DNA of 64,000 bases from Paradevosia shaoguanensis (lineage in GTDB: Bacteria; Pseudomonadota; Alphaproteobacteria; Rhizobiales; Devosiaceae). The notes below the pieces were generated by a model, which was not told the DNA's origin, did no database searches, and was given only the letters and a program-made list of their open reading frames with translations. How positions within the stretch are numbered: position 1 is the stretch's first letter; each line of letters opens with the position of its first letter. The position numbers were made by a program, and so were the translations under genes. This document shows positions 1 to 32,734 of this stretch, in pieces. The stretch lies in contig NZ_CP068983.1 of NCBI RefSeq assembly GCF_016801025.1, positions 1,488,001 to 1,552,000 of the forward strand, in the 5' to 3' direction.

Positions 1-1524
1 GAGCTCGATGAGAGCGTCTGCGTCATCGCCGACAGCTCGGGCCCGCTCGGCATCGGCGGCATCATGGGTGGCGAGGCTACGGGCTCGACCGACCAGACCG
101 TCAACGTCTTCATCGAATGCGCCTGGTTCGAGCCGACCGATGTCGCCGCCGTGGGCCGTAAGCTCGGCATCAATTCGGACGCCCGCTACCGCTTCGAGCG
201 TACGGTCGATCCGGAATCGGTGATGTGGGGTATCGAATACGCGACGCAGATGGTGCTCGACCTCTGTGGCGGCACCGTGCACGAGATAGCCGTGGCCGGG
301 CACGTGGAAAGCCCGCACACGGAAATCGAGTTCCCGCTGGCCGAAACCAAGCGCCTGACCGGCCTCGAGGTGACGCGCGCCGAGACCGAGCACTTTTTGA
401 CGCGCCTCGGCTTCGAAGTCGAGGGCACGGGCGAGGTGGTGAAGGTCACCGTGCCGTCCTGGCGCCCGGATGTGACGCAGAAGGCTGATATCGCCGAGGA
501 AGTGATGCGCATGGTGGGCGTGGACAAGGTCCCCGTCGAGCCGCTGCCGCGCCTCAACCACGTGGCGCCGCGCATGCTGACCAATATCCAGAACCGCCGC
601 CGCATCGCGCGCCGAGCGCTGGCGGCACGCGGGCTGGACGAAGCTGTCACCTGGTCGTTCATCTCCCATGACCTTGCCACCCGCTTCGGCGGAGGTAGCG
701 ATGACGTGCAACTGGCCAATGCCATTGCCTCTGACATGACCGACATGCGCCCGTCGCTGCTGCCGGGCCTGCTATCGGCCGCCACGCGCAACGCCAATCG
801 CGGCTTTGCCGATGTGGGCCTTTTCGAAGTCGGCCAGATCTTCCTTTCCGATAAGCCCGAGGGCCAGCATACCTACGCCACGGGCATCCGCACCGGCACG
901 GCCGGCTTCGATGGCGCCGGGCGCCACTGGAGCGGCAACGGCAAGCCGGTGGGCGTGTTCGACGCCAAGGCCGACCTGGGCGCGGTGCTCGATGCGCTGG
1001 GCGTCGATATCGAGAAAGTGCAGCTGGTGGCCGAAGCACCGGCCTGGAGCCATCCGGGACGCGGCGGGCGGCTGCAGCTGGGCCCGAAGGTCATTCTCGG
1101 CTGGTTCGGCGAACTGCATCCGGCCTGGGCGAAGGAACTCGATATCGATGGGCCGGTAGCGGCCTTCGAGATCGACCTCGACGCCCTGCCCGAGCCGCGC
1201 AAGAAGGCCACCAGGGCCAAGCCGGCGCTCAGCCTCTCCGACCTGATGCCCCTGAGCCGCGATTTCGCCTTCGTGGTCGGCCGTGACGTCACGGCGGCGA
1301 CGATCCTCAAGGCGGCACGCGGAGCCGACAAGGCACTGATCACCGATGTCGCGGTTTTCGACGTTTTCGAGGGCACCCACGTTGGCGAAGGCAAGAAATC
1401 CGTCGCCATCGAGGTGACCTTGCAGCCGCAGGACAAGACGCTGACCGACGAGGAGATCGAGAAGGTTTCCGGCGCAATCGTCGCTGCTGTCGAAAAGGCC
1501 ACCGGCGGAGCTTTGCGCAAATGA
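1..1524 (+). CDS. pheT: Phenylalanine-tRNA ligase beta subunit, 3' part
   Basis: This is the beta subunit of the alpha2-beta2 enzyme that charges tRNA-Phe in the cytoplasm. The frame is open from base 1, so the gene enters from outside the window; 507 residues are visible of a family total near 800. The visible part opens inside the B3/B4 editing region (IGGIMGGEATG), continues through B5 (RPDVTQKADIAEEVMR) and the catalytic-like core, and ends with an FDX-ACB anticodon-binding domain (DLMPLSRDFAFVV). The stop overlaps the next start in an ATGA. pheS is expected just upstream, outside the window. Identification is secure. Confidence 0.96.
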   Translation, partial: ELDESVCVIADSSGPLGIGGIMGGEATGSTDQTVNVFIECAWFEPTDVAAVGRKLGINSDARYRFERTVDPESVMWGIEYATQMVLDLCGGTVHEIAVAGHVESPHTEIEFPLAETKRLTGLEVTRAETEHFLTRLGFEVEGTGEVVKVTVPSWRPDVTQKADIAEEVMRMVGVDKVPVEPLPRLNHVAPRMLTNIQNRRRIARRALAARGLDEAVTWSFISHDLATRFGGGSDDVQLANAIASDMTDMRPSLLPGLLSAATRNANRGFADVGLFEVGQIFLSDKPEGQHTYATGIRTGTAGFDGAGRHWSGNGKPVGVFDAKADLGAVLDALGVDIEKVQLVAEAPAWSHPGRGGRLQLGPKVILGWFGELHPAWAKELDIDGPVAAFEIDLDALPEPRKKATRAKPALSLSDLMPLSRDFAFVVGRDVTAATILKAARGADKALITDVAVFDVFEGTHVGEGKKSVAIEVTLQPQDKTLTDEEIEKVSGAIVAAVEKATGGALRK

Positions 1525-26809: not shown

Positions 26810-27715
26810 CTAAATCACGACAATACCGGAATGCTTGGCCTTGTCCTCGGGCTCGACATGGATCGTGACCGTGGCGTCGGATTCGGCTTCGCGCAGCTTG
26901 GCTTCGATGCGGTCGCAGATGACGTGGGCCGCTTCCACGGTCATCGAGCCGGGGACGACGAGATGAAACTCGATGAAGGTGGCGCTGCCCGCCTGGCGGG
27001 TGCGGATATCGTGGGCTTCGATGGCGCCTTCGGCATTGGCCGAGATGATCTCCTTGATGCGCATCAGCTGGCGGGCGTCGACGGCGACGTCCATGAGGCC
27101 GATGACGCTGTCGCGCAGGAGCTGCCAGCCCGACCAGAGGATGGAGAGGCCGACCAGCGCGGCAAGGATGGCGTCGAGCCGCTGCCAGCCAGTGATGATG
27201 ACGAGGCCCACACCCACCAGCACGCCGAAGGTCGAGATGACGTCGGTGAGCAGGTGCTTGCCATCGGCCTGCAGCGCCGGCGAGCGCTCGCGGCGGCCGC
27301 GGCTGATGAGGAGATAGGCCCAGGCCATGTTGAGCACGGAGGCGATGACGCTGACGGCAAGGCCCAGCGGATCGGCAACGAAGGCGCGCGGGGACATGAA
27401 GCCGTAATAGGCCTCACGGAAGATCAGCAGCGCGGCGACGACGATAAAGACGCCGACGATAACGGCCGAGAAGTATTCGGCCTTGTGATAGCCATAGGGC
27501 AGTGTGTCGTTGGCCGGGCGGGCGGCGAGGCGGACGGCGATGAGCGTCACCACGGCCGTCACCACGTTGACGACGCTTTCCAGGGCATCCGAGAAGAGCG
27601 CGATACTACCGGTGGCCCAGGCGGCAAAACCCTTGAGCCCGAGCACCACCACCCCGACCACGAGACTGCCCATAGCCAGTTGCAATGCGACGGGGGAATG
27701 CGTGTGCCGTGCCAT
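26810..27715 (-). CDS. Cation diffusion facilitator family metal transporter
   Basis: A 301-residue inner-membrane exporter of divalent metals by proton antiport. Six membrane segments lie in residues 10-210, with metal-site signatures ALFSDALESVVNV in helix 2 and ADGKHLLTDVIST in helix 5, then a C-terminal cytoplasmic ferredoxin-like domain (THIR-like IRTRQAGSATFIEFHLVV). The start at 27715 (ARHTHSPVALQ) gives a normal length; the longer frame lacks homologous content. Metal choice among Zn, Fe, Co and Mn is not decided by the sequence. It is divergent from the second cobalamin block, so cobalt is worth considering. Confidence 0.9.
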   Translation of the reverse strand: MARHTHSPVALQLAMGSLVVGVVVLGLKGFAAWATGSIALFSDALESVVNVVTAVVTLIAVRLAARPANDTLPYGYHKAEYFSAVIVGVFIVVAALLIFREAYYGFMSPRAFVADPLGLAVSVIASVLNMAWAYLLISRGRRERSPALQADGKHLLTDVISTFGVLVGVGLVIITGWQRLDAILAALVGLSILWSGWQLLRDSVIGLMDVAVDARQLMRIKEIISANAEGAIEAHDIRTRQAGSATFIEFHLVVPGSMTVEAAHVICDRIEAKLREAESDATVTIHVEPEDKAKHSGIVVI

Positions 27716-27854
27716 GAAGCGTCTCGAATTGGGGAACGTCCGCCCTCCTAGCGGGCAGTTTTGACGCTGGCAACGCCTATCTTTGCAAGTGGTTTTAGGA
27801 GGCATTCGCAACAGCCCGAAACCGGCGGTTGACCGGGGCTTTGCACGTGCCTAG

Positions 27855-27983
27855 AAGGTGTTAGCGCAGCGTTCCAACAGGGACTGAAAGACAGTCCGGT
27901 GCGGTCGACCCAAACCGGGGACCCAGGCCGGAGCTGCTCGACGAGTTTCGATGCGAACTCTGCCTCTCACGAGAGGTAGAACC
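27855..27983 (+). promoter_or_regulatory. Structured leader upstream of second cob operon, SD in a hairpin
   Basis: The 268-base gap between the CDF gene and cobH2 holds a structured leader. GGACTG-AAAGA-CAGTCC forms a perfect 6-bp hairpin at 27881-27897. Near the end (27959-27980), TCTGCCTCT pairs with AGAGGTAGA around a CACG loop, and this stem contains the AGAGG ribosome site of the next gene. CCGGTGCG and GCCGGAGCTGC recall parts of the cobalamin riboswitch core, but I see no full B12 box. Reading: a candidate metabolite-controlled translation switch, class unresolved. Confidence 0.5.
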
Positions 27984-28598
27984 ATGATCAATGCCGCCGA
28001 ACTCGCCGCCCAGCGGCGCGAAATGTTCGTGCACGCCGCCCAATTGGCGCACCTGCCCAAATCGCTCGATGCCGCCATCGTCGCCATGATCGAAGTGTGC
28101 GGCATGGTGGACCTGGTCGTGGATATCCGCGCCCATGCCGGGCTCGTGGCCGCCATCGATTCGGCATTGCTGGCCGGGCGCCCCGTGCTCTGCGACTGCG
28201 AGATGGTGCGCGAGGGTATCGATCCGGCAGTGGTCGGGGAGAGCCCGGTCATCTCCAAGCTCAACGATCCGGCGGTGCCGGACCTGGCCCTGACAATCGG
28301 CAACACGCGGTCGGCTGCGGCAGTGGACCTCTGGGGCGAGGCGCTCGGCGGCGCGATCGTCGTGGTGGGCAATGCGCCGACCGCGCTGTTCCGGCTTTAT
28401 GAATTGCTGGAGGCGGGCGCGCCGAGGCCGGCGGCGATCATCGGCATTCCGGTGGGGTTCGTCGGCGCGGCGGAGAGCAAGGCGCTTCTGGCCGAGGGCA
28501 TTGCGGACGTACCCTATCTTACGGTTCTGGGCCGGCGCGGCGGATCGGCCATGGCCAGCGCGGCGTTCAACGCCATTGCCGGAGGACTGATACGATGA
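27984..28598 (+). CDS. CobH/CbiC-like protein lacking the catalytic His (second copy)
   Basis: A 204-residue member of the precorrin-8X methylmutase family and first gene of the cobL-cobE-cobM operon. The middle and C-terminal parts are canonical: LLAGRPVLCDCEMV, TIGNTRSAAAVDLW, VGNAPTALFRLYELL, PVGFVGAAESKALL and GRRGGSAMASAA. The N-terminal IRDGxxIYxxSF motif is absent, and the catalytic position reads MIEVCGMVD, with Glu where CobH has His. It is thus the mirror image of the copy at 14503-15048. It may be a non-catalytic partner, a new enzyme, or form a mixed dimer with the first copy. Confidence 0.85.
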   Translation: MINAAELAAQRREMFVHAAQLAHLPKSLDAAIVAMIEVCGMVDLVVDIRAHAGLVAAIDSALLAGRPVLCDCEMVREGIDPAVVGESPVISKLNDPAVPDLALTIGNTRSAAAVDLWGEALGGAIVVVGNAPTALFRLYELLEAGAPRPAAIIGIPVGFVGAAESKALLAEGIADVPYLTVLGRRGGSAMASAAFNAIAGGLIR

Positions 28599-30159: not shown

Positions 30160-30917
30160 CGGTCTATTTCATCGGCGCGGGGCCGGGCGCGGCGGATCTC
30201 ATTACCGTGCGGGGTCAGAAACTCATCGAGCGGTGCCCGGTCTGCCTTTATGCCGGGTCGCTGGTGCCGGCCGAGATCGTGGCTTCAGCGCCCGAGGGTG
30301 CGCTGGTGCGCGATACGGCGGAAATGCATCTCGACGAGATCATCGGCGAGATGGTGGCCGCCCATACGCGCGGGCAGGATGTGGCGCGGGTGCACTCGGG
30401 CGACCCCTCGCTTTATGGCGCCATTGCCGAGCAGATGCGGCGGCTCGATGCCCTGGGGATCGGCTACGAGGTGGTACCGGGAGTGCCGGCCTTTGCCGGG
30501 GCGGCAGCGAGCCTGGCTACGGAGCTGACGCTTCCCGACGTTTCACAGACCGTGATCCTGACGCGCGTTTCGAGCGGGGCTTCGCCCATGCCGGAAAGCG
30601 AGAGCCTGGAGGTGCTGGCGCGCTCGAAGGCGACGCTGGCGCTGCACCTGGCCATCAAGAGCGCAGCAAGAATCGCCGAGACGCTGATCCCGCACTATGG
30701 GGACGATTGCCCGGTGGTGGTGGTCTATCGCGCCACCTGGCCGGACGAGAAGATCATCGTGACGACGCTGGGCGACATGGTCGAGCGGCTGAACGCCGAA
30801 TCCATCCGCCGGACGGCGCTGATCTTCGTGGGGCGGGTGTTCGGGCCGGCGCATTTCCGCAATAGCCGCCTCTACGAGGCCGGCTTCAGCCACTACCGGC
30901 GCGAGGCTTCCGAATGA
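30156..30917 (+). CDS. cobM: Precorrin-4 C11-methyltransferase
   Basis: CobM adds the C11 methyl group to precorrin-4 from SAM. The 253-residue tetrapyrrole methylase has VYFIGAGPGAADLITVRGQ, the Cys-containing ERCPVCLYAGSLVP, VARVHSGDPSLYGAIAEQ, and VVVVYRATWPDEKI. It is the last gene of the operon beginning at 27984. Its last 25 bases overlap the convergent cobK. Confidence 0.95.
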   Translation: MTVYFIGAGPGAADLITVRGQKLIERCPVCLYAGSLVPAEIVASAPEGALVRDTAEMHLDEIIGEMVAAHTRGQDVARVHSGDPSLYGAIAEQMRRLDALGIGYEVVPGVPAFAGAAASLATELTLPDVSQTVILTRVSSGASPMPESESLEVLARSKATLALHLAIKSAARIAETLIPHYGDDCPVVVVYRATWPDEKIIVTTLGDMVERLNAESIRRTALIFVGRVFGPAHFRNSRLYEAGFSHYRREASE

Positions 30918-31630
30918 AGCGCGGCAAGGGCCTCTTGGACGGTCCCGACCTCGTGGGCCGGACCATAGGCGGGGCGGTCGATCATGACGACCGCGATGCC
31001 GAGGTCGCGCGCTGCATCGAGCTTGGCGGCCGTCTGGCTGCCGCCCGAATTCTTGCTGACGAGATGGGTGACGGCCTCGCGCTGCATGAGCGCCGTTTCG
31101 CCTGCGAGCGTATAGGGCGGGCGATCGAGCAGCAGGTTCGCATGGGCCGGCATGGCCTCGGCGGGGGGCTCGATGACGCGGACGAGGAAGGTGCAATCGT
31201 CGCGTTCGAGGAAGGTCTTGAGGCCGGTATGACCGGTACTGAGCAGAGCGCGGGCGCCGGATGGCAGCAGCGCTGCGGCAGCTTCGGTCGAGGCGGCGCG
31301 CAGCCAGGGGGCATCGGCGGGTTCGGGCCATTCGGGGCGCATGAGGCGCAGGAGCGGTATGCCGGTCGACTGGCTGGCCGCCACGGCATTGATGGAGATG
31401 AGCCCGGCATAGGGATGGGTGGCATCGACGAGGTAATCGAAGCTTCCGGCCCTGAGATAGGCGCAAAGGCCAGGAATGCCGCCGAAGCCGCCGACGCGGA
31501 GGCCACCATTAGGGAGCTTGGGGTCGCTGGTGCGGCCGGCGAGCGAGGTGGTGACCGCGTGGCCCGCTTCGACCAGCGCGCCTGCCAGGGCACGGGCTTC
31601 GCCTGTACCGCCGAGGATGAGGATGCGCAT
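30893..31630 (-). CDS. cobK: Precorrin-6A reductase
   Basis: CobK reduces precorrin-6A to precorrin-6B with NADPH. The 245-residue protein has the Rossmann-like start ILILGGTGEARALAGAL, the substrate loop YLVDATHPYAGLIS, LLSTGHTGLKTF, and THLVSKNSGGSQTAAKLDAA. It lies 3 bases after cbiD in a two-gene minus-strand unit and overlaps cobM tail to tail. Confidence 0.95.
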   Translation of the reverse strand: MRILILGGTGEARALAGALVEAGHAVTTSLAGRTSDPKLPNGGLRVGGFGGIPGLCAYLRAGSFDYLVDATHPYAGLISINAVAASQSTGIPLLRLMRPEWPEPADAPWLRAASTEAAAALLPSGARALLSTGHTGLKTFLERDDCTFLVRVIEPPAEAMPAHANLLLDRPPYTLAGETALMQREAVTHLVSKNSGGSQTAAKLDAARDLGIAVVMIDRPAYGPAHEVGTVQEALAALHSEASRR

Positions 31631-31633
31631 GGC

Positions 31634-32734
31634 CTAGCCGCTTTCCCCCACGATCTTGCCGGCGCGATCGACGACGAGAACGTCGACCCGCACGCTGGGG
31701 CCGGCGACGGCCTGGGCAGCATCGCGCGCATTGCGGGCAACGGCATCGGCCAGCGGCAGGTCGGCGGCCTCGGCCAGTTGCAGGACTTCGTTGGCGGTGT
31801 TGGCGACGCGGGCATGGCCGACGAGATCGGCGTTGGCGCCGAGGGTTTCGAGGATGCGGGCCAGGGCGTCGAGATCGACGGTGCCGCGAGCGGAATGGAG
31901 ATCCATGGCGCCCTGCGCGAGCTTGGAGAGCTTGGCGAAGCCGCCGGCAATGGTGAGACGCGGGACTGGATGGGCCTTGATGTATTTGAGGAGGCCACCG
32001 ACGAAATCACCCATATCGAGGAAAGCCTCGATGGGGAGATCGAGCCGCGCCATGGCGGCCTTTTCGGAGGTGTCGCCGGTGGAGCCGACGACGTGGGTGA
32101 GCCCCAGCGCGCGGGATACGTCGATGCCGCGATGCATCGAGGCGATCCAGGCGGAGCAGGAATAGGGGATGACGATGCCCGTCGTACCCAGGATCGAGAG
32201 ACCCCCAAGGATGCCGAGACGCGGATTCCAGGTTTTCTGCGCGATGCGTTCGCCATCGCGTACCGAGATGGTGACGGCGAAATCGGGGGCGATGCCGTGA
32301 GTCTGGGCGATCGTCTCGACCACTTCGCGCATCATCCGGCGCGGTACGGGATTGATGGCGGGCTCGCCCACGGCCAGCGGCAGGCCGGGCTTGGTCACGG
32401 TGCCGACGCCGGACCCGGCACGGAAGGTGACGCCGCTACCGGCGGCGGCCGGCTCGATGCGGGCGGTGATGAGCGCGCCGTGTGTGACATCGGGATCGTC
32501 GCCCGCGTCCTTGATGATCGAGGCTTCGGCAAAGCCTTGCCCCAGATGCTCGCCCGCGAGGGCGAAAGCCGGTTGCTGGCCGCCCGGCAGGGTGATGGTG
32601 ACAGGGTCTTCGAACTGGCCATCAAGCAGCGCGACCAGCGCCGAGCGGGTGGCGGCGGTGGCGCAGGCGCCCGTCGTCCAGCCGCGCCGCAGGGGCGTGC
32701 CGTCTTCGCGCGTCTCGGGTTCCGTCTCGCTCAT
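31634..32734 (-). CDS. cbiD: Cobalt-precorrin-5B C1-methyltransferase type protein
   Basis: A 366-residue CbiD protein. CbiD methylates C1 and removes the extruded acyl group in the anaerobic route; the aerobic equivalent CobF is not seen here, and CbiD is used in its place in many alphaproteobacteria. Signatures: LRRGWTTGACATAATRSAL at the start, GDDPDVTHGALI, PAINPVPRRMM, TGIVIPYSCSAW, and VVGSTGD. It heads a cbiD-cobK unit divergent from cobA, with 47 bases between starts. Confidence 0.93.
   Translation of the reverse strand: MSETEPETREDGTPLRRGWTTGACATAATRSALVALLDGQFEDPVTITLPGGQQPAFALAGEHLGQGFAEASIIKDAGDDPDVTHGALITARIEPAAAGSGVTFRAGSGVGTVTKPGLPLAVGEPAINPVPRRMMREVVETIAQTHGIAPDFAVTISVRDGERIAQKTWNPRLGILGGLSILGTTGIVIPYSCSAWIASMHRGIDVSRALGLTHVVGSTGDTSEKAAMARLDLPIEAFLDMGDFVGGLLKYIKAHPVPRLTIAGGFAKLSKLAQGAMDLHSARGTVDLDALARILETLGANADLVGHARVANTANEVLQLAEAADLPLADAVARNARDAAQAVAGPSVRVDVLVVDRAGKIVGESG

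Follow-up and report, generated by a model that had tools for sequence, protein, structure and literature searches.

A conserved leader RNA ahead of cob operons in Hyphomicrobiales, most likely a cobalamin riboswitch reduced to its 5' half

The window (the whole stretch of 64,000 nt analysed, positions 1,488,001–1,552,000 of contig NZ_CP068983.1 of Paradevosia shaoguanensis) carries on its plus strand cobH (precorrin-8X methylmutase; 27984–28598), first gene of the operon proposed to be regulated, with ATG at 27984 and the ribosome-binding site AGAGG at 27972–27976, assigned from the sequence. A CDF transporter (26810–27715, minus strand, likely start ATG 27715) diverges from the leader and is the metal exporter named in the preliminary description; its best match was the manganese efflux protein MntE, at a score below the MntE curated cut-off, and it is nearer to MntE than to the cobalt/nickel exporter DmeF. 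The exporter adjoins the leader element in most family members. Within the cob cluster a minus-strand pair, cobK/cbiJ (30893–31630) and cbiD (31634–32734), was observed; cbiD is a gene of the anaerobic-type pathway and sits here among aerobic-type genes.

The ribosome site of cobH is located inside a 9-bp stem with one G-U pair, TCTGCCTCT (27959–27967) with AGAGGTAGA (27972–27980), closed by the loop CACG (27968–27971), just as had been read from the sequence at the outset. This plus-strand hairpin (27959–27980) is the candidate sequestor burying the ribosome site, on the strength of sequence, folding and the pairing statistics given below. The perfect 6-bp hairpin reported earlier was also found (GGACTG/CAGTCC, 27881–27886 with 27892–27897), together with pieces recalling the cobalamin riboswitch core, CCGGTGCG (27896–27903) and GCCGGAGCTGC (27927–27937). 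The whole-leader fold was unremarkable in stability by itself (z −1.57; 16 of 200 shuffles equally stable), and thermodynamic folding of the window leader was set aside as not decisive.

Covariation supports a three-helix junction composed of P1, P2 and P4, the last with an inserted hairpin P4b (all on the plus strand). P1 is formed by GCAG (27866–27869) with CTGC (27934–27937), the latter having as canonical counterpart the GCTGC of J4/5-P5; P2 (27871–27884) by GTTCC (27871–27875) with GGGAC (27880–27884), loop AACA. The strand joining P2 to P4 (27885–27894) holds the conserved TGAAA-N3-A and matches canonical J2/3 TGAAAAGGGAA. P4 (27895–27932) consists of TCCGG (27895–27899) with CCGGA (27928–27932) and includes an internal loop TGC / CAGG (consensus AAGN). 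P4b (27903–27923), inserted at the canonical L4 position, comprises GGTC (27903–27906), bulge GA, CCC (27909–27911), loop AAACC, GGG (27917–27919) and GACC (27920–27923); the same insert is found in canonical riboswitches. Covariation was seen in each of the four helices.

When 47 copies were aligned on sequence alone, 8 pairs were double-changed (32 cells vs 7.7 after shuffling, reached in 0 of 500 shuffles), and among 87 diverse copies double changes occurred in 20 of 21 pairs (266 cells vs 61.5); these cell counts include related sequences and are uncorrected for kinship. Sliding controls in the 87-copy set were at most 60% paired vs 97% for the proposed pairs. The A2 and A3 alignments, the 87-copy one included, depend on fitting to the model; as a check the count was repeated on 88 copies aligned by MAFFT without constraint. 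Here double changes amounted to 52 (P1), 76 (P2), 41 (P4) and 65 (P4b), shuffled means being 10, 22, 11 and 16, respectively, and each helix exceeded the maximum of 200 shuffles. P1 was 98% paired; in L191, L197 and L210 it is swapped as a unit (TGAAATG with CATTTCA). Double changes were present at all five pairs of P2, and this hairpin is wholly replaced in one genus (L059, L060, L079, L086), where the ribosome site follows directly after P1 and the leader is of ~90 nt. Among the unpaired residues, TGAAA-N3-A (joining P2 to P4), TGC and AA (P4 internal loop), the bulged GA and a single A of the P4b loop are near-invariant. Absence of covariation among orthologues had been named beforehand as evidence against a leader RNA; covariation was strong, and the leader RNA stands. 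The 6-bp hairpin at 27881–27897 was rejected as a conserved element: it is peculiar to the window sequence and a few relatives, is missing in most others and cannot coexist with P2 and P4, which covary; for these reasons it is unlikely to be the functional fold.

In a nucleotide search with 27760–27990, 96 of the family's 136 genomes, representing 13 of 16 genera, had matches to the element, a conservation far beyond chance; ~220 copies were collected across Hyphomicrobiales. With the covariance model built from 47 copies, hits were obtained in 170 of 397 sampled genomes of the order and in few outside it, 42 of 385 genomes of the class (one genome per species in all distribution counts), low-scoring matches including canonical cobalamin riboswitches, so that not all of the 170 and 42 are truncated copies. 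When named genomes were scanned with a pattern, truncated copies turned up in Devosia, Rhizobium, Ciceribacter, Peteryoungia, Ensifer adhaerens, Agrobacterium (Allorhizobium) vitis, Aurantimonas, Jiella, Nitratireductor, Breoghania and Aestuariivirga. For 218 of the 221 truncated copies the gene immediately downstream is a cobalamin or cobalt gene; the first recognised gene was cbiX (126), cobE (53), DUF6732 (31), cobH (5), hupE (2) or cobW (1), none being recognised in 3. DUF6732 is a small membrane protein, followed by cbiX in the examples examined; a DUF6732 protein with an AHPGH or AHIGH motif was observed just before cbiX at L009, L015, L018, L097, L154, L200 and L206, and may possibly be a cobalt-handling peptide.

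The Rfam models gave no assignment. Cobalamin (RF00174) had no match in the window at gathering threshold, nor at E up to 10, and none in the truncated L125, L126, L191, L213 and L260 at E up to 5; AdoCbl (RF01482), AdoCbl-variant (RF01689) and NiCo (RF02683), the last two having been proposed with Cobalamin as models for this leader, did not match the window at E up to 10. Rfam as a whole gave no family at gathering threshold; at relaxed threshold (E up to 10) only whalefall-1 and P33 appeared in the window, with E of 2.4 and 9.3, and were dismissed as chance. No Rfam family detects the conserved leader element. It was also found undescribed in the open literature on Devosia, Rhizobiales and Ensifer, on candidate or orphan riboswitches and on cobalamin variants; the main text of two large structured-RNA discovery surveys does not mention cob. 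RF01482 and RF01689 resemble the element in regulating cobalamin-related genes and in being cobalamin riboswitch variants themselves, but neither model matches; NiCo shares a metal-related context and differs in fold and conserved core.

P2, the joining strand, P4 and the P4 insert are common to the element and to canonical alphaproteobacterial cobalamin riboswitches. The element profile matched L002, a genuine cobalamin riboswitch from the window's own genome, with E 2e-4. The insert was located in the canonical riboswitches L093, L128, L131, L272, L273 and L279 (family and class), of which L093 scores 126 bits with RF00174. The element model, which had been built without L272, L273 and L279, scored these insert-bearing canonical sequences at 52 (L272), 49 (L279) and 45 bits (L273), with E from 8e-10 to 7e-12, the alignment spanning all 80 positions. 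L288 from Fodinicurvata is a reduced canonical riboswitch with the insert (RF00174, 46.8 bits) and precedes hupE-cbiX-cobH-cobL-cobM-cobE, an operon headed elsewhere by the truncated element; the P6 region of this cobalamin riboswitch (L288:1615–1781) was seen to be strongly shortened. L288 appears to be a natural intermediate between the canonical and truncated forms.

The B12 box GCCAGGAGACCUGCC (J6/3 region) is absent from the window leader, in accordance with the first reading, and was not evident in the truncated copies read; the P5/L5 sequence GCCCCCGC of the L5-L13 kissing loop is missing from the element. The covariation places the closure of P1 right after P4, giving a three-way junction and not the P3-P6 four-way junction. 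In published riboswitches the cobalamin pocket lies in this four-way junction, held by an L4-L6 contact (PMC10907184); without it the known pocket is absent, and cobalamin binding would need another one. Because P2, the joining strand, P4 and the insert are shared, and because the Fodinicurvata reduced form stands at the same operon, the element most likely represents a cobalamin riboswitch of which the 5' half remains, P5, P6, B12 box and usual pocket being gone; most simply, the truncated form can be read as the outcome of losing the 3' half (P5, P6, J6/3). The preliminary description had offered a highly degenerate cobalamin riboswitch: the kinship to the riboswitch core is supported, P2, the joining strand and P4 being shared with canonical forms, whereas the leader is not a lone degenerate copy but one member of a truncated form conserved across the order.

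Compared with RF00174 (classes I, IIa and IIb), P2, the joining strand TGAAA...GNGA, the P4 core GGUG...CCGG, the cob operon context, ribosome-site occlusion and, for some alphaproteobacterial members, the P4 insert are the same. The element has no P3, P5 or P6, no J6/3 B12 box and no L5 to make the kissing loop; it further differs in having a three-way and not a four-way junction with P1 made from the former GCUGC, and in a core of about 75 nt vs about 190. The ppe2 B12 riboswitch of Mycobacterium tuberculosis (PMC11260477) is, as proposed for the element, a compact OFF switch acting on translation, and its arms are fused or shortened; unlike the element, it retains both the P3-P6 four-way junction and the B12 box.

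An alternative pairing is possible in the window between 27866–27874 GCAGCGTTC and the proposed antisequestor 3' strand GAACTCTGC (27955–27963, plus strand); GCAG-C-GTTC is paired with GAAC-T-CTGC, exclusive with P1, P2 and the sequestor. In Rhizobium/Agrobacterium the antisequestor is CAUGUGCGA-C-GGCGCC with GGCGC-U-UCGUACAUG, about 14–15 bp; the pairing is very strong in Rhizobium, and by reading, GCUUCGU of the Rhizobium group can alternatively pair with ACGAAGC beside the ribosome site. A loop-allowing duplex energy test of the antisequestor was weak (median z −0.3 vs +0.3 for a control strand) and was replaced by a stricter stem score with a cluster-level test: complementarity of the 5' strand to the downstream region exceeded that of shuffles (Wilcoxon p 3e-4, 74 sequence clusters), which was not so for either of two control strands (p 0.12 and 0.31). 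Beyond a few clades this signal is of moderate strength, p 0.05 being reached individually by 11% of clusters. Pairing probability of the ribosome site was 0.78 vs 0.62 in shuffled leaders (74 clusters, p 3e-7). Sequestration and alternative pairing are thus predicted features with statistical support. Telling against the switch, the window leader folded without constraint favours a third arrangement (−48.4 kcal/mol), slightly lower in energy than the constrained OFF state (−47.4); the ON state has −45.6.

A putative promoter was located at 27829–27857 on the plus strand (TTGACC, 27829–27834; 17-nt spacer; TAGAAG, 27852–27857), from which a transcript would begin just before P1; a stricter consensus promoter scan of the leader listed none. 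Of 215 leaders, 103 had the pattern TTG[AC]N-15..19-TANNA no more than 60 nt upstream, vs 5 after shuffling, and the second promoter element usually ends 9–12 nt before P1.

The alternative pairing, the sequestration of the ribosome site and the promoter position fit with a translational OFF switch, and a cis-acting switch of this kind, derived from a cobalamin riboswitch, is somewhat favoured as the function of the element. In the proposed mechanism the retained 5' half (P2, J2/3, P4 with insert) would be closed by P1, re-formed directly after P4 into a three-way junction. With ligand plentiful, P1 and P2 would form, the downstream segment would be free for the sequestor hairpin and cobH would stay untranslated; without ligand, 27866–27874 would pair with 27955–27963, the sequestor would be broken and the ribosome site exposed. 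A corrinoid is the best guess for the ligand; the direction of control, and switching as such, are putative. The aptamer-type helices show strong covariation; the expression platform is statistically supported, though not in every clade. About a dozen copies have neither downstream hairpin nor antisequestor and carry the ribosome site right after P1; the proposed switch therefore does not apply to every copy. In copies without sequestor P1 itself may hinder the ribosome.

With the cobalamin pocket gone, a true riboswitch moved to another ligand, e.g. cobalt ion or a corrin pathway intermediate, has to be considered. Absence of P5, P6 and B12 box agrees with such a change, as does the presence of at least one canonical cobalamin riboswitch in 383 of 397 order genomes and of three genuine ones elsewhere in the window's own genome, by which these genomes already sense cobalamin; many first genes, moreover, handle cobalt (cbiX chelatase, hupE, cobW). 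(In the window's genome two canonical riboswitches were observed back to back at L001:1188–1691, ~115 nt apart.) The parts kept by the element are nevertheless cobalamin-riboswitch parts, and cobalamin repression commonly targets such an operon, so that a change of ligand is regarded as rather doubtful. More tentatively than the switch itself, but with more credit than a mere exchange of ligand, a new riboswitch class may be envisaged: at the cob operon a cobalamin riboswitch would have lost the half that bears the ligand pocket and rebuilt a smaller three-way-junction aptamer, which would sense another signal of the pathway (cobalt or an intermediate of corrin synthesis) or bind cobalamin by an unconventional mode.

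Binding of a regulatory protein instead of a small molecule would suit the conserved single-stranded residues of junction and internal loop too, and the compact copies have little room for a pocket; the ligand-binding ancestry and the exclusive alternative fold suit a small-molecule switch, and the protein appears improbable. Least credible is a constitutive structured leader (stability, RNA thermometer, translation tuning), a riboswitch remnant no longer switching, to which loss of the sequestor in several clades and weakness of the antisequestor in many would correspond: the near-invariant unpaired TGAAA, TGC/AA and bulge GA, together with the near-exclusive cob context across the order, indicate selection beyond stem stability. 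The cobalamin-riboswitch-derived OFF switch is retained as the preferred reading.

The element would document a riboswitch class halved yet kept under selection across an order, and canonical, reduced (same operon) and truncated forms are all available for tracing the steps. This Rfam-absent leader element is carried by hundreds of soil and plant bacteria. In many Hyphomicrobiales, among them the Ensifer adhaerens lineage used for vitamin B12 production, the main cobalamin operon would appear to be under the control of an element overlooked by current annotation.
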